Origin: Mucilaginibacter empetricola
GTDB lineage: Bacteria > Bacteroidota > Bacteroidia > Sphingobacteriales > Sphingobacteriaceae
Length of the DNA: 64,000 nucleotides
Assembly: GCF_024808665.1 (NCBI RefSeq)
Contig: NZ_JANUBZ010000002.1
Span: 688,017-752,016 of the forward strand
Direction: 5' to 3'
A program made the position numbers and the translations under genes. Below are positions 51,862 through 62,143 of this stretch, one piece after another. Each line of letters starts with the position of its first letter. Position 1 is the first letter of the stretch. The notes beneath the pieces were generated by a model. That model made no database searches, had not been told where the DNA came from, and worked only from the letters and a program-made list of their open reading frames with translations.

Positions 51862-52311
51862 TCAGTAGTTAACAGCCTGATCACTATTGGTTTTATTTAA
51901 TTTTTCAAGTTTCGACATTAAAGAAACTATCTTATTATTTTTCCTTAAACACTTCTCCTCTAATTCAGAAATTCTTTTTTCATAAACGCAGATTAACTTT
52001 TCGCGGTCATTATTGTTTTTTTCGTTTAAAGTTGCAATTAGCTTGGTTTCTTGTTCCAAACTTACACCAGTAGTTTTTATCCTGGGCACCAGCAATGGCT
52101 CTTCTAAAAGTTCGGCAACGCTCAAATGGTATAAATCGGCCAAAATTTTTATGCTTACAACGTCAGGGGCATATTTTCCGCTCTCAAAATAGTTATACTT
52201 TGCCTGGGATATATTCAAAATTTCGGCGATCTGTTTTTGTGAAAATCTGTTTTTCTCTCTTAGTTTTTTTAAAGTTTTAGGCAATTCAGAACCTCTGTTT
52301 GGAAATTTCAT
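51862..52311 (-). CDS. XRE-family HTH regulator with C-terminal coiled coil
   Basis: The 149-residue protein has an N-terminal XRE/Cro-type helix-turn-helix (about 10-70: LPKTLKKLREKNRFSQKQIA, EILNISQAKYNYFESGKYAP, ILADLYHLSVAELLEE) and a charged C-terminal helix (about 95-140: ENNNDREKLICVYEKRISELE) that should form a coiled coil for dimerisation. It is divergent from the peptide/exporter operon across a 276-base spacer with two palindromes, so it is the obvious candidate regulator of that system. Confidence 0.85.
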   Translation of the reverse strand: MKFPNRGSELPKTLKKLREKNRFSQKQIAEILNISQAKYNYFESGKYAPDVVSIKILADLYHLSVAELLEEPLLVPRIKTTGVSLEQETKLIATLNEKNNNDREKLICVYEKRISELEEKCLRKNNKIVSLMSKLEKLNKTNSDQAVNY

Positions 52312-52399
52312 GCTTAACTACGTCTTTAATTTATAGGTTTTCAGTTAATACTTATTATTATATTGATAAATTTTAAATATAATTTTTTTTTCTTGAAAC

Positions 52400-52446
52400 A
52401 AACAATTGATTATCAATTAATAAAATTATCATTATAATGATTGTTT
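52400..52446. promoter_or_regulatory. Nested palindromic operator region between XRE and peptide genes
   Basis: AATTGATTATCAATT (52404-52418) is a palindrome around a central T, and ATCATTATAATGAT (52428-52441) is a perfect 14-bp palindrome. Both lie inside an outer inverted repeat AAACAAT (52400-52406) / ATTGTTT (52440-52446). XRE dimers usually bind such sites. The region lies about 90 bases from the XRE start and 140 bases from the first peptide gene. Confidence 0.5.
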
Positions 52447-52490
52447 TTATTAATAATAAAGCAAATGGTTGCAAGGAAAAAATACAACTT

Positions 52491-52545
52491 AGGGTATAGC
52501 GATTGGGGTGCGCACCGGTTAATTGCTTGAGGTTATCTGTACCCT
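52491..52545 (+). promoter_or_regulatory. Structured leader of the peptide operon
   Basis: AGGGTA (52491-52496) can pair with TACCCT (52540-52545), enclosing the palindrome GGTGCGCACC (52507-52516). It stands out as a GC-rich block in an AT-rich spacer, 43 bases before the first peptide ATG. It could be a regulatory leader. Confidence 0.35.
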
Positions 52546-52587
52546 CCTGGTAAAGTTACAGGCCATTAAAATCTTAAACAAAAAATT

Positions 52588-52764
52588 ATGAAAAAGTTAG
52601 AATTAGCTAATTATGGATTAGTAGAAATGAACGAGGAAGAAATGCTTCACACAGATGGCGGCGTAATAGGTATTGATGACTTAATACTTGCAGGTGCTGT
52701 TTTTTTAGTAGGCGTAGCTTATGACCTGGGAAAAGGCGATGGTGCCAAAAACAGAAACAAATAA
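52588..52764 (+). CDS. Double-glycine leader peptide A (bacteriocin-like precursor)
   Basis: This 58-residue ORF begins MKKLELANYGLVEMNEEEML and then HTDGG. The leader has the hydrophobic/acidic spacing typical of double-glycine leaders (L-E-L, Y-G-L, M-x-x-x-E-M-L, then GG), which C39-peptidase exporters cut after the second Gly. The predicted mature peptide is 33 residues, VIGIDDLILAGAVFLVGVAY followed by DLGKGDGAKNRNK: a glycine-rich hydrophobic helix with a basic tail, like class II membrane-active peptides. It has no cysteine. Two C39 exporters in the same cluster support the call. Target and activity are unknown; a signalling peptide is an alternative. Confidence 0.8.
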   Translation: MKKLELANYGLVEMNEEEMLHTDGGVIGIDDLILAGAVFLVGVAYDLGKGDGAKNRNK

Positions 52765-52787
52765 TTAACCATTAAAAACTAAACCAC

Positions 52788-52964
52788 ATGGAAAACTCAA
52801 CAAACACACAATTTTGTATGGAGCTTGATATGAATCAAATGTTTGACATATCAGGCGGAGGCTTTTGGTCTTGCGTTGGAGCAACCCTTAGCGAGCATTA
52901 TATTAAAACTGCCATTTTTGGCGCGCCATACGTTATCGGCGTTATGGTTGGCTGCGACTCGTAA
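52788..52964 (+). CDS. Double-glycine leader peptide B with two cysteines (bacteriocin-like precursor)
   Basis: This second 58-residue ORF starts 23 bases after peptide A. The leader reads MENSTNTQFCMELDMNQMFD then ISGG. The predicted mature part is 34 residues, GFWSCVGATLSEHYIKTAIF then GAPYVIGVMVGCDS, with cysteines at mature positions 5 and 32 placed to close one large disulfide loop. A thioredoxin-like protein with a CxxC motif is encoded downstream. The pediocin YGNGV motif is absent. With peptide A it may form a two-peptide system; the equal leader-plus-core lengths support that but do not prove it. Confidence 0.78.
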   Translation: MENSTNTQFCMELDMNQMFDISGGGFWSCVGATLSEHYIKTAIFGAPYVIGVMVGCDS

Positions 52965-52973
52965 CAAAAAAAT

Positions 52974-53016
52974 TAAGGCTAGCTATTTTAGCTAGCCTTA
53001 TTTAAATCTATTTTTT
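52974..53016 (+). terminator. Perfect 11-bp hairpin after the peptide genes (terminator or attenuator)
   Basis: TAAGGCTAGCT (52974-52984) and AGCTAGCCTTA (52990-53000) pair perfectly around a 5-base loop, preceded by an A-run and followed by T-rich sequence ending in six T just before the next ATG at 53017. Partial read-through would make much more peptide mRNA than exporter mRNA. Confidence 0.75.
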
Positions 53017-53142
53017 ATGAAAAAGAAACACTTTGTCATCCTCACTATAGTTGCTATAGTAGCACTAACAGTTTTCTCAATTTACAATAAAGGTTTTGAC
53101 ATTGGCTTTAACGATGCCCAAAAACATAAAACTTCCAAGTGA
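53017..53142 (+). CDS. 41-residue single-span membrane peptide
   Basis: A small ORF encodes MKKKHFVILTIVAIVALTVF and then SIYNKGFDIGFNDAQKHKTSK: a lysine-rich start, one membrane helix (about 6-23) and a polar tail. It has no GG leader, so it is not another exported precursor. In bacteriocin loci, short membrane peptides next to the structural genes are often immunity proteins; that is the likeliest role, but it is inference. It lies directly after the hairpin and 59 bases before the next gene. Confidence 0.6.
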   Translation: MKKKHFVILTIVAIVALTVFSIYNKGFDIGFNDAQKHKTSK

Positions 53143-53201
53143 TTTCTTATAGCAACAACTACACTATTAACAATTCTAACTAAAGTTTAATCCCGCCCGA
53201 A

Positions 53202-53861
53202 ATGAAGCTTTATTACTATTTAGAAAGACAGAACATATTTAAGTTGTTTGCCGCGCTGACATTGTTAACCATTGCGGTAGACTTTTTAACCCAGCGATAT
53301 ATATTTACAAGTACGGTTTATTACAATAGTTTCAGCGAGCAGTTATCAATGGATCAGATTGATAATATCATAGCCAATAAAGACAAGTCATTTTACTTTG
53401 TTTACCCTATAGAAGCCGTGTTGTTATTGTTAAAATGCCTATGTATAACCATAGTTATACAAGCGGGGTTATTTTTTAGGAATATTAATATTAGCTATAG
53501 TAAAGTTTTCAAAATCTCCATTCTGGGTGAATTTGTTTTTCTGGCACCACAGCTAATTAAATTTTTATGGTTTTATTTTTCAAAACAAGCCTATACAATT
53601 GACGATCTGAAGACGTTTTTCCCTTTATCTGCATTAAATATCTTTGATGAGAAAACACTTCCCCTACTTTGGTATTATCCGCTAAAAACCATAAACATTT
53701 TTGAGGTAATATATTGGTTTGTACTCGGGTTTTTAATAAGCAATTTAATAAAAAGGGACTTTAATGCTTCACTAAATATAGTATTGTCCAGCTATATACC
53801 TGCTTTAGTTATTTGGGTGTCTTTTATAATGTTTCTTGTGGTAACATTAAATCCTGTTTAG
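53202..53861 (+). CDS. Polytopic membrane protein of the peptide cluster, unknown
   Basis: The 219-residue protein has about five membrane helices (roughly 13-30, 65-88, 104-126, 162-184, 196-216) and a KCLC pair inside the second. I do not recognise the family with certainty; the general look is Yip1-like. It lies between the small membrane peptide and the thioredoxin-like gene, whose GTG start follows 2 bases after its stop, so the two are probably translationally coupled. It may provide immunity or help the redox step. Confidence 0.6.
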   Translation: MKLYYYLERQNIFKLFAALTLLTIAVDFLTQRYIFTSTVYYNSFSEQLSMDQIDNIIANKDKSFYFVYPIEAVLLLLKCLCITIVIQAGLFFRNINISYSKVFKISILGEFVFLAPQLIKFLWFYFSKQAYTIDDLKTFFPLSALNIFDEKTLPLLWYYPLKTINIFEVIYWFVLGFLISNLIKRDFNASLNIVLSSYIPALVIWVSFIMFLVVTLNPV

Positions 53862-53863
53862 CT

Positions 53864-54382
53864 GTGAAAAGAAATATTTTTTTGATAGGTATTATGTTAT
53901 TAGTCATGTTATCGTTTGTATTAATTCTGAAGAGTTGTTTATCGAATGATAAATCAGAACAAGTAACTATAAACCAACGAAAAAGGCTGCCTGCCTTTAC
54001 CTTTTATAATCTCGACAGCACCCGGTTTTCGAACATAAACCTGGGCATTGGGGTAAATACTTGCATCATTTATTTTGATCCCGACTGTGATTTTTGCGAA
54101 AGCGAAATATCCTCAATTATAGCCAATATTACTGCTTTTAAAAATACGCAGCTATTACTGATTTCGTTCAATAGCCCTGAAAAAATAAGAGCGGCCGAGC
54201 AAAAATTCAAGCTAAATCAGTTTAAAAACATCCGGCTGCTATGGGATAAAGATGTTCAGTTTGATAGCCTGTTTGGGAAATCAATTATCCCTTCCACATT
54301 CATATATAATAAAGACCAGCTACTGCTGAAAGAATATCATGGGTTGGTGAGTATAAAGGCGATCACCCAATGGTTAAATTAA
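53864..54382 (+). CDS. Membrane-anchored thioredoxin-like (TlpA/redoxin) protein
   Basis: I start it at the GTG 53864, 2 bases after the previous stop, giving 172 residues; the frame is open upstream to 53813, inside the previous gene. It has an N-terminal membrane helix (about 4-22, then KSCL), a strand LPAFTFYNLDSTRF, and the active site FDPDCDFCESEI with Cys75 and Cys78. The later IIPSTFIYNKDQ is the cis-proline loop. It would face the periplasm and exchange thiols and disulfides. Peptide B, with two cysteines, is an obvious candidate substrate. Confidence 0.8.
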   Translation: MKRNIFLIGIMLLVMLSFVLILKSCLSNDKSEQVTINQRKRLPAFTFYNLDSTRFSNINLGIGVNTCIIYFDPDCDFCESEISSIIANITAFKNTQLLLISFNSPEKIRAAEQKFKLNQFKNIRLLWDKDVQFDSLFGKSIIPSTFIYNKDQLLLKEYHGLVSIKAITQWLN

Positions 54383-54453
54383 CTATTTGGGCTTTAACAA
54401 TCCCCAACATTGGGAACAAAAATTCTTCTACTTCAATTTAAAAATTGTTGCAT

Positions 54454-56652
54454 ATGAGCCGGAAAATTAGCGCTGAAAAATATATAAATAAAACATTTGT
54501 TCTGCAGCAAGATCAGACTGATTGCGGAATAGCCAGTTTATTAAGTATTATCCGGTTTTATGGAAGCGATCAAACACTCGAAAAGCTAAGAGAGCTAAGC
54601 GGAACCCATATTACCGGCACAACCTTGCTGGGTTTGTATCAATGTGCACAATCTATTGGGTTTGATGCCAAAGGCACAAAAATCAATTTTGAGTTTTTAA
54701 AGGCGCAAATATCGCCTTGTATTTTGCATGTTTTGATAGAGAACAGGTTAGAACATTATGTGGTATACTATGGCAAGAAACAGCGTAAAACAACCTCAGA
54801 AAAAGAAGTTTATTTAATTGGCGATCCCCGCAAAGGTTTAGTTGAAATGCACGAAGATGAGCTTGACGAAATATGGAAAAGTAAAATAGCCTTGCTTGTT
54901 CAGCCAAATTTAAATTTCAAGCCAGGTAAAAGTACATTGAATGGTAAATGGCTATGGTTTAAAAATGTGATAGATGACGATATCAACATATTAGTGATCA
55001 CAATTTTATTGGGATTTTTTATTACCGTGCTCGGTGTATCTACAGCTGTCTTTTACCAAAAAATGATTGATGATATTTTGCCACATGCCAAAATAAGTAA
55101 GCTGGTAGCAGGTATATCATTGTTGTTTTTCATTTTGGTAGGTAAAAGTTTCCTGACTTATTTAAGGCAGCATTTTATTTTGATGCAAAGTAAAAGCTTT
55201 AATGAACGTATTACCGGGAACTTTTTAAATGCGTTGTTTTATTTACCCAAATCTTTCTTTGACAAAAGAAAAACCGGCGATATGACAGCCCGTTTAAATG
55301 ATACTCAACGCATACAAAAAAATATAGCTTACATAGCCGGAACTGTTTGTATAGATATTTTAATAACTATTGTTACCCTTATTATTTTATTTATATACTC
55401 CACGCCAATTGCGGTGGTCACCTTGTGTTTTATTCCTGTAATTGTTTTTACGGTTTTGAATTTTGTAAAACCAATTCATAAACAGCAAAAAAATGTAATG
55501 ATTGCCTATGGAAGTACCGAAAGTAGTTATGTAGATCATATTAACGGTATATCAACAATAAAAGAGAATAATAGTGAAGCTGTTTTTATTTCAACCAATA
55601 AAGGAATTTTCAGGCATTTTCAGGAAGCTTCAATTGCTTTGGGCAATATTGGCAATAAATTTAACCTGGCATCTGAACTTTTAGGCGTTTTTATGCTCAT
55701 TAGCATGGTGATGGTTTCATCATACCTGGTTATTAATAAGCAAATAAAGATTGGTGAAATGGTTGCTGTATTATCTATGATTGGCAGTCTGTTGCCATCC
55801 GTTCATCGTCTGGCTCAATCCAATCTTCAAATTCAGGAGGCTAAGGTGGCGTTTGACAGGATGCATGAATTTGCATCAGTTAAACCGGAATTTGAATTGC
55901 AAGAAAATGAATTAATGGATTTGAACCTGGAACAATTGGTTGTTCAGGATATGGCATTTGGCTTTCCCGGCAGAAAATTAATTATTCAAAATGTTTCGTT
56001 TGAAGTACGAAAAGGTGAGCTGATAGTTTTAGTTGGGGAAAGCGGTTGCGGAAAGAGTACCATTTTGCAACTATTGCAAAGATTTTACTACCCGGCAAAG
56101 GGTAATATCTTCGTCAACGACAGACAGATAGCAGAATTATATATTCCCTCGTGGAGAGATATTATTGCTACTGTTCCGCAGGATGTTAAATTATTTAATA
56201 CCACCCTGGCTGAAAATATTACTATGGGCAGAAAAATTGACTCGATAACCGAAGTTCATAATTTCTGCGAAAAGTATGGCTTTGATAAGTATTTTTCGGC
56301 GTTTCCGCAGGGCTATTTAACCATTGTAGGCGAGGAGGGTATAAACCTATCCGGCGGGCAAAAGCAACTGGTTGCCATGGCGCGGGCATTGTTTAAAAAG
56401 CCGCAGCTTTTATTATTAGATGAAGCGACTGCGGCAATGGATAAAAATACGGAGCAATTTATATTTTCTCTCCTTAAAAAATTAAGCGACGAAATTGCGG
56501 TAATAATGGTAACGCACCGGATAAATACCGTAAAAAATGCCGACAGGATTTATATTATTGAAGATGGGATAGTTATTGACAAAGGGACGCATACCTCTTT
56601 AATGTTAACTAACAATCTTTATAGCAATACATTAGCGGAGTATAGTATGTAA
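54454..56652 (+). CDS. C39-peptidase-containing ABC exporter 1 (PCAT)
   Basis: PCATs cut double-glycine leaders and export the core peptide. I use the ATG at 54454 over the TTG at 54445 (732 residues). The peptidase domain has Cys24 (QQDQTDCGIASLLS), His101 (LEHYVVYYG) and Asp124 (LIGDPRKG), so it should be active. An ABC membrane domain follows (about 165-460), then the ATPase with Walker A GESGCGKST (528-536), signature LSGGQKQ, Walker B LLLLDEAT and the switch VTHR. It has about 12 residues before the peptidase core. It lies between the redoxin gene and an ABC ATPase/permease pair. No HlyD gene is directly next to it; it may share the one at 58835. Confidence 0.92.
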   Translation: MSRKISAEKYINKTFVLQQDQTDCGIASLLSIIRFYGSDQTLEKLRELSGTHITGTTLLGLYQCAQSIGFDAKGTKINFEFLKAQISPCILHVLIENRLEHYVVYYGKKQRKTTSEKEVYLIGDPRKGLVEMHEDELDEIWKSKIALLVQPNLNFKPGKSTLNGKWLWFKNVIDDDINILVITILLGFFITVLGVSTAVFYQKMIDDILPHAKISKLVAGISLLFFILVGKSFLTYLRQHFILMQSKSFNERITGNFLNALFYLPKSFFDKRKTGDMTARLNDTQRIQKNIAYIAGTVCIDILITIVTLIILFIYSTPIAVVTLCFIPVIVFTVLNFVKPIHKQQKNVMIAYGSTESSYVDHINGISTIKENNSEAVFISTNKGIFRHFQEASIALGNIGNKFNLASELLGVFMLISMVMVSSYLVINKQIKIGEMVAVLSMIGSLLPSVHRLAQSNLQIQEAKVAFDRMHEFASVKPEFELQENELMDLNLEQLVVQDMAFGFPGRKLIIQNVSFEVRKGELIVLVGESGCGKSTILQLLQRFYYPAKGNIFVNDRQIAELYIPSWRDIIATVPQDVKLFNTTLAENITMGRKIDSITEVHNFCEKYGFDKYFSAFPQGYLTIVGEEGINLSGGQKQLVAMARALFKKPQLLLLDEATAAMDKNTEQFIFSLLKKLSDEIAVIMVTHRINTVKNADRIYIIEDGIVIDKGTHTSLMLTNNLYSNTLAEYSM

Positions 56653-56673
56653 TTTGACCAGTATGTTAATGAT

Positions 56674-57588
56674 ATGCGCAAGATGAAAACAGCAGACGGA
56701 ATTTTAAAACTACATAATATATCAAAAACATATGGTGATAAAAAAGTATTGGATGGTATCACCCTGGATATACCGGAAGGGGCGGTTTTTGGGGTACTAG
56801 GGCCAAACGGAAGCGGTAAGACAACCCTGCTCGGCATTGTGCTTGATGTTATAAAATGTGACGGAGGATATTGTGAATGGGTTGGAAACGGTGCCGGTAA
56901 ATTTAATAAAATGAAAGTTGGGTCATTATTAGAAACGCCCAATTTTTATCCCTATCTCAATGCTGAACAAAATTTAAAAATCACCGCTTTAATTAAGCAA
57001 AGTGATTACGCTGATATTGCTGTGGTGCTTAATCAACTTGATTTAACTGCAAGTAAAAAAAAGATGTTTAGCACTTATTCCCTTGGAATGAAACAAAGAC
57101 TGGCTATTGCCGCCTGCCTTATCGGGAATCCGGAAATAATTATACTTGATGAGCCCACCAATGGTTTAGATCCCGAAGGCCTGGCAGATGTACGGGCTTT
57201 AATAAAACATTTGCATGCTCATGGAAAAACGATTATTGTGGCCAGCCACTTGTTAGATGAAATAGAAAAAATTTGCACGCACGTAGCCGTTTTAAATAAG
57301 GGTAAACTTGTTGCTTCAGGTACCGTTAAGGAGGTGTTCAATTATCCCGATATTATAGAGGTATCAAGTAAACATATCGATCATTTATGTGACGCCTTGC
57401 AACAGTTTCATTACGCTTCGAAAATAACTCGCGAAGGAAATATGATCAGGGTGTTTTTTAGGGAAGATGAACTTCACCCTGAAAGGCTTTTCAGGTTTTG
57501 CGCCGAAAAAGGAATAGACCTTAATCACTTACAGGTTGTGAAAAACAACATGGAACAATCGTTTTTTGATTTAATAAAAGCAAGTTGA
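56674..57588 (+). CDS. ABC transporter ATP-binding protein (CcmA/LanF/BcrA-like)
   Basis: The 304-residue ATPase shows Walker A GPNGSGKTT, signature YSLGMKQRLAIAACLIG, Walker B IIILDEPTNGLDPEG and the switch VASHLLDE, with a C-terminal ~90-residue extension typical of LanF/BcrA-type subunits. The ATG at 56674 could also be the internal one at 56683. With the permease starting 4 bases downstream it forms an ABC-2-type transporter of the kind that gives producers self-protection from their own peptide. Its place between two exporters supports an immunity role. Confidence 0.9.
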   Translation: MRKMKTADGILKLHNISKTYGDKKVLDGITLDIPEGAVFGVLGPNGSGKTTLLGIVLDVIKCDGGYCEWVGNGAGKFNKMKVGSLLETPNFYPYLNAEQNLKITALIKQSDYADIAVVLNQLDLTASKKKMFSTYSLGMKQRLAIAACLIGNPEIIILDEPTNGLDPEGLADVRALIKHLHAHGKTIIVASHLLDEIEKICTHVAVLNKGKLVASGTVKEVFNYPDIIEVSSKHIDHLCDALQQFHYASKITREGNMIRVFFREDELHPERLFRFCAEKGIDLNHLQVVKNNMEQSFFDLIKAS

Positions 57589-57592
57589 AAAT

Positions 57593-58372
57593 ATGGTAAA
57601 ACTGCTGCAAATAGAATGGATAAAATTGAGATACTACAGGAGTTTTTGGGTACTTCTGTCATTTTTTTTCGTGGCGTTACTTTCCATCAACTACTTTATA
57701 TACAACTTGTATAGAAAAAAAAGTGCTGAAAATGTAACTACACATAGTCTGTTTACTTTTCCTCAGGTATGGCATACGGTTACCTATATATCAGGTTTTG
57801 CTTTTTTTATCCCCGCATTATTAATAATCATTTTGGGGACTAATGAAATAGTTTTTCGTACTTACCGGCAAAATATAATAGATGGATTAAGCCGGGCGCA
57901 GTATATCAATACAAAGTTTGTTTTAATATTGATTTTGTCGGCCGTGTGTACCGTTTTGGCAGTAATTACTGTACTCGTTTTTGGCTTTTCGTCAAAGGGA
58001 GTAATCAATTTTGAAGGCGGTACCTTTGTTTTCTATTTTTATATTCAATGTGTGTGTTACAGCAGCATGGCGCTGCTTTTTGCAATTGTGATAAAAAAAA
58101 CGGGCATGGCTATCGGGTCATTTGTGTTATATGCGTGGGTTTTAGAAAAATCGGTTTCAGGTATCCTTAATTCAGCCTTTAAATATAACGTTGGCAATTA
58201 TCTTCCTTTAAGCTCGTCAGACAAACTAATCCCTGTACCTTTTGGGGATACCTTAAACAAACTTAACGAACAGCCATCAACAATGATTTTATTTTGTGTG
58301 GCATTAATTTACTTAGCTGCAATTTATTTGTTAGCTTATTACAAAATTCAGAATGAAGATATTGGGAATTAA
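57593..58372 (+). CDS. ABC-2-type permease (LanE/BcrB-like)
   Basis: The 259-residue protein has six membrane helices (about 18-40, 60-83, 104-130, 142-165, 172-195, 232-250) and a hydrophilic N terminus (MVKLLQIEWIKLRYYRSFWV) typical of ABC-2 permeases. FRTYRQNIIDGLSR is the usual cytoplasmic coupling helix. It begins 4 bases after the ATPase gene. The pair probably expels peptide from the membrane. Confidence 0.88.
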   Translation: MVKLLQIEWIKLRYYRSFWVLLSFFFVALLSINYFIYNLYRKKSAENVTTHSLFTFPQVWHTVTYISGFAFFIPALLIIILGTNEIVFRTYRQNIIDGLSRAQYINTKFVLILILSAVCTVLAVITVLVFGFSSKGVINFEGGTFVFYFYIQCVCYSSMALLFAIVIKKTGMAIGSFVLYAWVLEKSVSGILNSAFKYNVGNYLPLSSSDKLIPVPFGDTLNKLNEQPSTMILFCVALIYLAAIYLLAYYKIQNEDIGN

Positions 58373-58411
58373 TAATTAAAAATATTGAAGTAAACAACCA
58401 CCGCATAACTT

Positions 58412-58768
58412 ATGAATAAGAGATTTTTATACGCCATTATATTAGCCCTAATAGTTTTATTTACAGCCTACGAAGAGTTGCATTTTAGAAAATACCTTTT
58501 CAGTATGCCTAAAACCGTAATTATAGCTGGTAGCTTACCCAATTTTTTGGCCGCTATGTTATTTGCTTTTGCCTATATGGTGATTAAAAACCCCGTTAAT
58601 AACGCTGAAATAATAAGGTCGATTACGTTTATTGTAATTGGTTTAATATTATACGAGTTCGCTCAAATATGGATACCCAATATGGTTTTTGATGTAAAAG
58701 ATATTATAGCATCTATACTGGGCGGGGCGTTATCATATCTTATTATATACTGGGTTAACTATAAATAA
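58412..58768 (+). CDS. Small four-helix membrane protein, VanZ-like
   Basis: The 118-residue protein has about four membrane helices. The stretch ILYEFAQIWIPNMVFDVKDIIASILGG resembles the end of VanZ-like proteins (FE-x-x-Q, then FDxxDIxANxxGG). Its role is unknown; VanZ gives teicoplanin resistance in enterococci, so a protective envelope role is possible. It sits between the ABC permease and the HlyD gene, probably in the same operon. Confidence 0.65.
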   Translation: MNKRFLYAIILALIVLFTAYEELHFRKYLFSMPKTVIIAGSLPNFLAAMLFAFAYMVIKNPVNNAEIIRSITFIVIGLILYEFAQIWIPNMVFDVKDIIASILGGALSYLIIYWVNYK

Positions 58769-58834
58769 GGGGACCTGATTTTTCGCCCGCTTAAATTTAA
58801 ATCAACGGTTTGACAGATATTAAATATAAATCCG

Positions 58835-60001
58835 ATGCGGCTACCTATTTATTCAAACGACGACATTTCTCAAAACGTTATATCCTACAGATATCGCATA
58901 AAAAACAAAAGTAAGCTCATTTACACCATAACCCTTTTAACAATAATAGCCTGTTTAACCTGCTTACCATTTATAAAAGTACAAATCAGCATAAATGCCG
59001 GAGGAGTATTTGAACCCTCTACCGAAAAAACAGAGCTCCTGGCCCCTGTAAGCGGAAGGATAATAAAAGAGAATTTGAAAGACAACCAGGAGGTATACAC
59101 CGGAGATACACTTTTAATTTTCGATTCATCTTTACCCAAAAAACAAAACAACCTTTTAGATAGCCAAAAACGAAGCTTAAGCGCACTGTTACATGATGCA
59201 ACGGTATTATTATCTCAAAAAAGCTACCTCGATATTAACCTCAATTTAAATACCGGTCAGTACCAGACTTCTTTACAGCAGTTAAAACAAGAGCTGGACT
59301 ATAGTAAACTAACAAAAGACCAGGCCGAAAAAACCTTTAAAAGATTTGAAAGTTTGTACAGCAACAAAGTACTTACGGATGCTGAATTTGAAAAATATTC
59401 GCTCGACTATAAGCAGGCTGTTTCTTCTTACAACTTAATCCCAACCCGTTATCGTTCCCAATGGGAATTGGATGCTAAAGAGTATACCAAAGAGTTAAAG
59501 CAGCTAAATGGGCAGCAGGCCGATTTAAAAGATCAAAGTCAGAAATATGTATTAAAAGCACCCTTACACGGTTCAATACAAAATTTAAATGGCATACAAA
59601 CGGGCGAATTTGTAATTGCCAATCAAAAAATAGCAGATATTTCTCCGGATACCAAAATATTGGCGTTCTGCTATATTAAACCATCAGATATTGGATTAAT
59701 ATACAAAGGACAGCCGGTAAAATTTCAGGTAGATGCCTTTAATTATAACCAATGGGGTTTGCTGGATGGTAAGGTGCTTGATATATCTGATGATATATTA
59801 TTATCGGCAGATAATCAGCCTGTATTTAAAGTGAAATGCATAATCGATAAAAGTTACCTCGCTTTAAAAAATGGCTACCGGGGGTATATAAAAAAGGGGA
59901 TGAGTTTTACCGGAAGATTAAAAGTAACAGAAAGGACGCTGTATCAGTTGCTTTATGATCAGGTAGATAATTGGGTAAACCCTAATTCAAAAAATAATTA
60001 A
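58835..60001 (+). CDS. HlyD-family periplasmic adaptor (membrane fusion protein)
   Basis: The 388-residue protein has a cytoplasmic start, one membrane helix (about 33-52, LIYTITLLTIIACLTCLPF), a lipoyl half (AGGVFEPSTEKTELLAPVSG, GRIIKENLKDNQEVYTGDTLL), a long alpha-hairpin (about 105-235) and the second lipoyl half (YVLKAPLHGSIQNLNGIQTG), then a beta-barrel domain. This is the standard adaptor of type I peptide secretion. It ends 15 bases before exporter 2, so the two form a unit; an outer-membrane TolC partner is not in the window. Confidence 0.92.
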   Translation: MRLPIYSNDDISQNVISYRYRIKNKSKLIYTITLLTIIACLTCLPFIKVQISINAGGVFEPSTEKTELLAPVSGRIIKENLKDNQEVYTGDTLLIFDSSLPKKQNNLLDSQKRSLSALLHDATVLLSQKSYLDINLNLNTGQYQTSLQQLKQELDYSKLTKDQAEKTFKRFESLYSNKVLTDAEFEKYSLDYKQAVSSYNLIPTRYRSQWELDAKEYTKELKQLNGQQADLKDQSQKYVLKAPLHGSIQNLNGIQTGEFVIANQKIADISPDTKILAFCYIKPSDIGLIYKGQPVKFQVDAFNYNQWGLLDGKVLDISDDILLSADNQPVFKVKCIIDKSYLALKNGYRGYIKKGMSFTGRLKVTERTLYQLLYDQVDNWVNPNSKNN

Positions 60002-60016
60002 TAGTGGGAAGTTCAC

Positions 60017-62143
60017 ATGAAAGTAAAACAACGCGATATAACTGATTGTGGGGCCGCCTGCCTGGCTTCTATAGCTGATTATTATAAATTGAAGGTGCCC
60101 GTAGCCCGCATAAGGCAACTTGCAGGTACCGATAAAAAGGGCACCAATGTGACCGGAATGATAGAAGCAGCCGAAAAACTTGGCTTTGAAGCCAAAGGGC
60201 TTAAAGGCCCGTTTGAAAGCTTGTTTAAAATTCCGCTTCCTGCTATTGCTCATGTAATGGTGAAGGATGTATTGCACCATTATGTGGTGATTTATAAGGT
60301 TACCGGGAAATTTATTTTAGTGATGGACCCCGGAGATGGGCAGTTACATAAAAAAACCTACGAGGAATTTAAAAATGAATGGACCGGGGTATTGATACTG
60401 CTTTTGCCTGCCGAAAAATTTGAAGAAGGCAATCAAAAAGTTTCAACTAACCGCCGCTTCTGGAATCTTATTAAACCACATAAGGATGTATTTATACAAT
60501 CACTGGTTGGCGCGGTGATCTATACCATTTTAGGTTTAGCAATATCAGTATATGTGCAAAAACTGGTAGATTTTGTATGGGTTGACGGGAATAAAAACCT
60601 TTTAAATATGATGAGTATAATCATGGTTATACTATTGATTATACAATTAATTATAGGCACGGTAAAAACGGTATTTACCATAAAAACCGGACAGCTGATT
60701 GATGCGAAGTTAATTTTAGGCTATTATAAACACCTGCTAAAATTACCTCAGCAGTTTTTTGATACCATGCGCGTTGGCGAAATTATATCAAGAATTAACG
60801 ACGCAGTTAAAATAAGAACGTTTTTAAATGATATAAGTATCAATTTTTTGGTAAACATTTTTATTGTTTTCTTCTCTTTCGTAATGATGTTTACCTATTA
60901 CTGGAAACTGGCCTTAATATTACTGATAGCTATCCCCATGTACCTGGCAATTTATTGGATAGCTAACATGCTCAATAAAAAAGTTCAGCGAAAACTCATG
61001 GAAGATTCCGCAGAGCTTGAGTCTCAATTAGTGGAAAGTTTGAATGCCGTAGGCACCATAAAAAGGTTCGGTTTAGAAGATTTTACCAATGAGAAAACCG
61101 AGAGGAGCTTTGTGAAATTATTATCGACTATTTATTCTTCGGGGAAAAATTCAATAATTTCGGGCACCTCGGCAGAATTTACTTCCCGGTTCTTAACCAT
61201 TGCTTTGCTTTGGATAGGTTCAAACTATGTTTTAGACAAACAAATTACCCCGGGCGAATTGCTTTCATTTTACACACTGATAAGCTATTTTACCGATCCT
61301 ATTTCTTCATTAATAGGGATGAATAAAACCGTGCAGGACGCAATTATTGCTTCGGACAGGTTATTTGAAATTATGGATCTGGAAACTGAACCCGAAGATA
61401 ACCAGATAACATTAACTGCCGATAAAATAGGCGACCTCAGTTTTAAGAATGTTTCTTTCCGTTATGGAACGCGCAAGAGTATTTTTAAAGATTTGAATTT
61501 AAATATCCCTCACGGGCAATTTACGGCCATTGTTGGGGAAAGCGGCTCCGGTAAATCAACCTTAATGTCGTTACTACAAAATATATTCCCCATTAACGGC
61601 GGAAGTATATTTATTGGCGATTATAATTTAAAATATATTAAAAATTCATCCCTGCGTAGTCTCATTGCTGTTGTACCTCAACAAATTGATCTTTTTGCAG
61701 GTAATGTAATTGAAAATATTGCCATAGGCGATTATGAGCCCAATCTGGAAAAAATTGTAACCCTTTCCACACAGCTGGGGATAATGGATTTTATAGAAAG
61801 TCTGCCCAAAGGTTTCAAAACCTATCTGGGCGAAAACGGCACAACTTTATCGGGCGGCCAGCGACAGCGAATTGCTATAGCGAGGGCACTATACCGCGAT
61901 CCTGAAATTTTAATTTTAGATGAAGCCACTTCTTCATTGGATACTACAGCCGAAAAATATGTTCAAAATATGATTGAGCTGTTAAAAAGAAAAAACAAAA
62001 CCATAATTGTAATTGCCCACCGGTTAAGCACGGTAGTTGGTGCCGATAAAATAGTTGTTTTAAATAATGGCGAAGTTGAAGAAGAGGGAATACATTCGTC
62101 CTTATTAGAGTTAGATGGACACTATGCGCGTTTATACAGATAA
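60017..62143 (+). CDS. C39-peptidase-containing ABC exporter 2 (PCAT)
   Basis: The 708-residue exporter has a complete peptidase domain with Cys11 (KQRDITDCGAACLASIAD), His88 (LHHYVVIYKV) and Asp104 (LVMDPGDGQ), then the ABC membrane domain (about 150-440) and the ATPase with Walker A GESGSGKST (507-515), signature LSGGQRQR, Walker B ILILDEAT and VIAHR. It differs clearly from exporter 1 and looks like the common Bacteroidota PCAT that works with HlyD. Both exporters retain all catalytic residues, so neither looks decayed. Confidence 0.94.
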   Translation: MKVKQRDITDCGAACLASIADYYKLKVPVARIRQLAGTDKKGTNVTGMIEAAEKLGFEAKGLKGPFESLFKIPLPAIAHVMVKDVLHHYVVIYKVTGKFILVMDPGDGQLHKKTYEEFKNEWTGVLILLLPAEKFEEGNQKVSTNRRFWNLIKPHKDVFIQSLVGAVIYTILGLAISVYVQKLVDFVWVDGNKNLLNMMSIIMVILLIIQLIIGTVKTVFTIKTGQLIDAKLILGYYKHLLKLPQQFFDTMRVGEIISRINDAVKIRTFLNDISINFLVNIFIVFFSFVMMFTYYWKLALILLIAIPMYLAIYWIANMLNKKVQRKLMEDSAELESQLVESLNAVGTIKRFGLEDFTNEKTERSFVKLLSTIYSSGKNSIISGTSAEFTSRFLTIALLWIGSNYVLDKQITPGELLSFYTLISYFTDPISSLIGMNKTVQDAIIASDRLFEIMDLETEPEDNQITLTADKIGDLSFKNVSFRYGTRKSIFKDLNLNIPHGQFTAIVGESGSGKSTLMSLLQNIFPINGGSIFIGDYNLKYIKNSSLRSLIAVVPQQIDLFAGNVIENIAIGDYEPNLEKIVTLSTQLGIMDFIESLPKGFKTYLGENGTTLSGGQRQRIAIARALYRDPEILILDEATSSLDTTAEKYVQNMIELLKRKNKTIIVIAHRLSTVVGADKIVVLNNGEVEEEGIHSSLLELDGHYARLYR

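Follow-up and report, generated by a model that had tools for sequence, protein, structure and literature searches.

Gene clusters that carry two precursor genes and two complete peptidase-exporters raise the question of what is produced and which exporter serves which precursor. Such a cluster is found in Mucilaginibacter empetricola, within a 64,000-nucleotide stretch of contig NZ_JANUBZ010000002.1 (assembly GCF_024808665.1, positions 688,017 to 752,016), referred to here as the window, from a genome of 5.8 Mb. The cluster (52588-62143 in window numbering) has every gene on the plus strand, with intergenic gaps of 2-71 bases. We propose, at a probability of about 0.6, that its sequence describes a hybrid class II bacteriocin cluster made of module A (a 219-amino acid (aa) membrane protein termed MEM219, a thioredoxin-like protein and the C39 peptidase/ATP-binding cassette (ABC) exporter a) and module B (an HlyD-type adaptor and exporter b), each exporting its own precursor. 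An earlier note on this DNA had read it as a peptide production and export system, and that reading is upheld: the C39 cysteine, histidine and aspartate motifs and the Walker A, signature, Walker B and H-loop motifs are intact in both exporters, and the two double-glycine (GG) precursors rank first and second among the small open reading frames (ORFs) of the window.

According to this proposal, exporter a would cleave precursor 2 after the double glycine and export the core, as in a bacteroidetocin cassette, whereas exporter b and the HlyD adaptor would cut and export the cysteine-free, class IIb-like peptide of precursor 1. We further infer that the thioredoxin-like protein would close a Cys5-Cys32 disulfide in the core of precursor 2 outside the inner membrane, that an ABC ATPase/permease pair, a VanZ-like protein and a 41-aa protein probably protect the producer, that a divergent XRE protein probably controls the gene run, and that the exported peptides may kill related bacteria.

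Precursor peptides and their assignment to exporters

Both precursors are ATG-initiated ORFs of 58 residues, and their cores are predicted to span 33 and 34 residues, as had been claimed earlier. A leader profile of 15 columns, derived from 181 distinct leader ends gathered by pattern in related loci with the window's genome excluded, was run against the window's 208 ATG ORFs between 30 and 130 aa long; precursor 1 scored first (E value 0.0027), precursor 2 second (0.094) and the next ORF 2.7. The value for precursor 2 is weak alone and is strengthened by its position 23 bases behind precursor 1 and by a relative of 83% identity (P0018). The leaders end in DGG in precursor 1 and in ISGG(G) in precursor 2. 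The core of precursor 1 has no cysteine, whereas that of precursor 2 has two, at core positions 5 and 32; the predicted monoisotopic masses are 3370.86 Da for the former and, for the latter, 3575.69 Da in the oxidised and 3577.71 Da in the reduced form.

Relatives of the precursors were sought as clusters at 90% identity. P0018 shares 29 of 34 core residues with precursor 2 and is listed on 82 contigs, and the sole relative of precursor 1 besides itself (P0016, 69% identity) shares 23 of 33 core residues and is listed on one contig. P0016 and a 69% relative of MEM219 (P0003) share a listed longest contig of 58129 bases, which suggests synteny. Neither precursor reached the cut-off of any curated family in Pfam and NCBIfam scans. 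Against TIGR03949, the lactobin A/cerein 7B family of class IIb bacteriocins, precursor 1 scored 18.4 bits, below the curated cut-off of 21.5, and its core may be regarded as class IIb-like.

The exporters were paired with precursors by a count of core cysteines over the unique cores of the fetched loci, with type-2 loci left out and short leaders taken as those of 15-17 aa. It should be noted that leader classes and locus types were defined by our own patterns, that some chance ORFs were surely counted, and that the locus sets overlap in genomes. Exactly two cysteines are present in 91/109 short-leader cores of module A loci, and none in 52 of the 62 long-leader cores from loci with HlyD and a relative of exporter b (C39b) or with a TIGR03949 match; three short-leader cores in the latter loci are exceptions. 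By this rule the two-cysteine precursor 2 would go with module A and the cysteine-free precursor 1 with module B. We infer these pairings, and precursor 2 would thus combine a core of module A type with a longer leader. The two precursors had previously been treated as a like pair, whereas their core cysteines point to different modules.

Module A and the bacteroidetocin regions

MEM219 reaches the cut-off of no Pfam or NCBIfam family, and its structure model consists of five long helices (mean predicted local distance difference test score 88). Among sampled genomes, relatives were found in 43/399 of the family and in 24/345 of the phylum, and the named genome collection holds 212 relatives. 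Module A counts rest on the 80 named loci that were kept, each with a MEM219 relative: a thioredoxin-like match is present in 72 and a C39 match in 78, both being present in 71, and a GG-precursor-like ORF lies within 6 kb upstream in 63, with none upstream in the other 17. The CxxC motif is invariant in all 12 aligned thioredoxin-like proteins. Thus, the cassette of MEM219, thioredoxin-like protein and C39 exporter recurs in Bacteroidota.

The known counterpart of this cassette is the bacteroidetocin region, proposed as class IIf. These regions encode a five-transmembrane (TM) protein, in most cases a thiol oxidoreductase, a C39-ABC exporter and a GG peptide containing two or more cysteines (Coyne et al. 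2019, PMC6671954). Loss of the peptide, TM or oxidoreductase gene attenuates the toxin, and the four genes suffice in Escherichia coli (PMC6671954). Bacteroidetocins have been characterised in Bacteroidales, with producers lacking self-immunity in the reported tests (PMC6671954), and resistance to bacteroidetocin A maps to BamA (PMC8546649). The same four parts occur in module A: MEM219 has five helices in its model, the putative oxidoreductase is an AhpC/TSA-like sequence with a CxxC motif, exporter a is a C39-peptidase ABC exporter, and at least two cysteines are found in the core of precursor 2 only. From these shared parts, module A would be the same kind of cassette as the bacteroidetocin region as known from its parts list. 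A second exporter, an HlyD adaptor and a cysteine-free peptide, all present here, are absent from bacteroidetocin regions as described in that source.

Several module A loci have features of their own. A plasmid of Flammeovirga pectinis (NZ_CP034564.1, locus L305) carries a module A cassette whose membrane protein is annotated merely as hypothetical, followed by a 51-aa two-cysteine GG peptide and, farther along, by a LanC-family protein. Among Aquimarina, two loci (L133 and L145) have nine and eight flagged GG precursors ahead of module A, several of which carry a leader of another type, 23 aa long (LNLKKMNIAQLDSIKGG). The membrane protein or the exporter is fragmented in three further loci (L093, L102 and L124).

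Module B and its precursors

Relatives of the HlyD adaptor (E value up to 1e-40) occur in 26 of 149 genomes of the genus, the window's own counted, and the loci of 15 of the 25 others were fetched. In all 15, a C39b relative of 60-75% identity adjoins HlyD, and in 14 at least one flagged GG precursor lies in front, with a maximum of six true-looking ones per locus. Leaders in the closer loci measure about 25 aa (MKNLELKELGVQEM...NGG). One genome (G213; HlyD relative 56%, C39b relative 73%) has two precursors beside HlyD and C39 that score 24.7 and 30.8 bits against TIGR03949, above the cut-off that precursor 1 does not reach. Two cores of this genome terminate in GYTIGKDLANRDNAAK, resembling YDLGKGDGAKNRNK of precursor 1. 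Among other module B precursors, the type found in L207 scored 14.9 bits and that of Pedobacter sp. AJM gave no match to this family. TIGR03949 matches were obtained in 19/291 genomes of the family at a limit of 1e-3 and in 3/287 genomes class-wide at the stricter limit of 3e-4. Outside these loci, the Phocaeicola salanitronis plasmid pBACSA02 (L303) also carries an HlyD gene and a C39 exporter with GG precursors next to them; it differs in possessing TolC and CAAX-endopeptidase-family genes, and no thioredoxin/MEM219 module is annotated there.

Other arrangements were seen around HlyD/C39b relatives. In L207-L212, three to six flagged GG precursors, a count that omits one or two longer ORFs, stand in tandem immediately ahead of HlyD/C39b; their leaders are nearly identical and their cores diverse. 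In L214-L220, the precursors belong to another, serine-/glycine-rich family (e.g., MKMQELNNAELQEVNGGSIFGGNDSSSS...) and are often present as two or more copies. The window's genome has a third C39 exporter (L221, G000:C4:38346-58000), preceded by an adaptor-like protein and a protein of 528 aa; in the part of that locus that was covered, no ORF was flagged as a GG precursor.

Co-occurrence of the two modules

A close HlyD/C39b pair (47% and 68% identity) stands beside module A in one of the 80 named loci, that of Pedobacter sp. AJM (L104, also numbered L062), where two long-leader precursors follow; the fusion is therefore rare but not unique. More distant matches beside module A are HlyD/C39b in L139 (24% and 33%) and C39b in L110 and L112. 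Among the matches listed in the open-access literature, subscription papers being outside the scope, there is no description either of the fusion or of core mimicry as a form of immunity (see below). The earlier impression that the combination looks undescribed is thus only partly right: it agrees with these searches as regards the fusion, whereas each module is known by itself, module A from the bacteroidetocin arrangement (PMC6671954) and module B from the recurrent HlyD/C39/long-leader loci. The parts of the cluster are mostly known, and what is unusual is the fusion of modules together with a 41-aa protein that resembles the core of precursor 1.

Alternative explanations

Class IIb bacteriocins work through the synergy of two peptides, and the precursors, 23 bases apart and both with long leaders, might accordingly form one two-peptide bacteriocin that leaves through a single shared exporter, the other exporter being a backup or serving other substrates. 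We regard this as rather unlikely, as their cores have two cysteines versus none, a difference that goes with different exporter settings in related loci; a weaker point, given the clustering at 90% identity, is the listing of their relatives on 82 contigs versus one, by which close relatives of the two precursors are not always together. A role of the peptides as signals (pheromones) that set cluster expression or another behaviour, instead of as killers, would suit the divergent XRE regulator adjoining the precursors, and signals are included among Gram-positive GG-leader peptides with C39 exporters (PMC6363468). Nevertheless, such a role appears improbable: Pfam and NCBIfam scans of the cluster genes detected neither a histidine kinase nor any other evident receptor, module A cores vary widely from locus to locus, and an ABC ATPase resembling those of lantibiotic protection (below cut-off) lies between the modules. 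Finally, the precursors may be decayed or unused, with exporters that serve substrates encoded elsewhere in the genome. The very few precursor relatives and the failure of precursor 2 to match below an E value of 0.001 in the other genomes searched would agree with this, but the frames are open and the relatives keep the length and both core ends, which makes this reading very improbable.

The hybrid two-module reading has observations weighing against it as well. Module A loci contain 18 unique long-leader cores, just two of them with exactly two cysteines and 13 with three to five, so that precursor 2 is an unusual member; with its 24-aa leader, both precursors could, by leader alone, serve exporter b. 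Bacteroidetocin leaders measure 15-16 aa compared with 24 and 25 aa for precursors 2 and 1, and because of this leader length precursor 2 was not assigned to the bacteroidetocins. The predicted mature peptide is also shorter, at 34 residues versus 42-48 in bacteroidetocins A, B and their closest relatives. The published order is TM, peptide, oxidoreductase and exporter, whereas here the peptide precedes the TM gene; MEM219 is likened to the published five-TM protein by architecture; and bacteroidetocin regions are reported to have no immunity proteins (PMC6671954). In addition, MEM219-like proteins are also found in unrelated gene contexts (L252-L259, relatives from the phylum), and the fusion was found in just one other genome.

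Candidate self-protection by a core-like protein

Among the genes that probably protect the producer, the 41-aa protein has a further possible explanation, which we consider doubtful: it could be a class IIb core duplicated without a leader, which remains in the inner membrane of the producing cell and, by pairing with the peptide or with the peptide's target, makes the peptide harmless. Likeness to cores was judged against a background of 535 small TM ORFs. The 41-aa protein scores 44 against a G213 core, a score reached by 3/535 ORFs that possibly include itself and its relatives, and 30 against the core of precursor 1, reached by about nine. Short leaderless single-TM proteins resembling a core of the same locus were found in G213 (63 aa, score 57), in G274 (47 aa, score 82, six bases behind the precursor) and, weakly, in Pedobacter sp. 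AJM (40 aa, score 31, 1136 bases away). These three pairs outscore all ORFs of other loci, whereas the window's own pair is equalled by 2/86 of them, which counts against core mimicry.

At the 0.005 mark, 4/20 cores of the class IIb group pass (about 0.13 expected), compared with 2/64 of the module A group (0.49 expected) and neither of the two cores of the window. Two of the six passing cores (L295 and L143) pair with another precursor-like ORF, and two, both from L206, share one partner; the L062 pair of Pedobacter sp. AJM, with its low score, is also among the six. Therefore, three loci outside the window support core mimicry, one of them weakly, and the pattern across loci is suggestive. 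In G052, a protein of 60 aa resembles precursor 1 and not its own neighbour, and the leaderless proteins of G187, L289 and L281 have no good match to any core.

Gene content of the cluster

Every gene listed in the earlier note was found at the position given for it (Table 1), and the inventory stands except that it had overlooked the VanZ-like membrane protein. The most likely start of the thioredoxin-like gene is a GTG at 53864; the exporter a ORF opens at TTG 54445, and the ATG at 54454 is the more likely start. G+C content is 35.2% in the cluster versus 40.0% in the remainder of the window; across the window, stretches of 10.3 kb span 34.9-42.2%. Lanthipeptide clusters are defined by a lanthionine-forming enzyme, and none was detected in the 12 cluster genes scanned with NCBIfam or in the 10 scanned with Pfam.

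Table 1. Genes of the cluster and the divergent regulator, in window coordinates
Feature	Position	Strand	Evidence
XRE-family regulator (HTH_3)	51862..52311	-	PF01381, E 4.2e-10; divergent, 276 bases from precursor 1
Precursor 1, 58 aa (25-aa GG leader, 33-aa predicted core)	52588..52764	+	Leader profile rank 1/208
Precursor 2, 58 aa (24-aa GG leader, 34-aa predicted core)	52788..52964	+	Leader profile rank 2/208
41-aa leaderless single-TM protein, candidate immunity peptide	53017..53142	+	Likeness to class IIb cores
MEM219, five-helix membrane protein, 219 aa	53202..53861	+	Structure model, relatives
Thioredoxin-like protein, N-terminal hydrophobic stretch	53864..54382	+	PF00578, 33.6 bits; CxxC alignment
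C39 peptidase/ABC exporter a (module A)	54454..56652	+	PF03412, PF00664, PF00005; motifs
ABC ATPase, nearest lantibiotic-protection type	56674..57588	+	TIGR03740, 200.7 bits, under cut-off 309.75
ABC-2 type permease	57593..58372	+	PF12679, 29.1 bits, cut-off 27.2
VanZ-like small membrane protein, 118 aa	58412..58768	+	PF04892, 29.1 bits, just under cut-off 30.1
HlyD-type adaptor (module B)	58835..60001	+	TIGR01843, 115.5 bits, under cut-off 208.65
C39 peptidase/ABC exporter b (module B)	60017..62143	+	TIGR01193, 543.3 bits, above cut-off 523.85; motifs

A second genomic setting of MEM219 relatives

MEM219 relatives also occur in a second setting, comprising 23 loci (L067 and L071-L092; e.g., L073:4600-8951), 21 of them from the same genus. 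All 19 loci with sequence at that place encode a 452-502-aa C39-transmembrane protein that lacks Walker A, and each of the three such proteins scanned has PF03412 and no ABC_tran domain. In 22 of the 23 loci, a conserved GG precursor whose core resembles GLFGGAGA...CLGWW was recognised by pattern, and in the remaining one (L082) by eye. A rhomboid-family protein on the opposite strand and an XRE gene are each present in 22/23, an RteC-family gene lies just downstream in 17/19, and ParA and transfer-like genes are located farther on. This setting resembles a peptide module without an ATPase that is linked to a conjugative element, and its peptide is perhaps a signal. The nearest published case found is a conjugative element of Riemerella reported to carry genes for C39-type exporters (PMC6491836).

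Implications for peptide export in Bacteroidota

With its extra exporter, cysteine-free partner peptide and candidate protection genes, the cluster offers a small set in which precursor-exporter matching and self-protection in Bacteroidota can be approached, and the leader/cysteine rule allows other clusters to be sorted from sequence.

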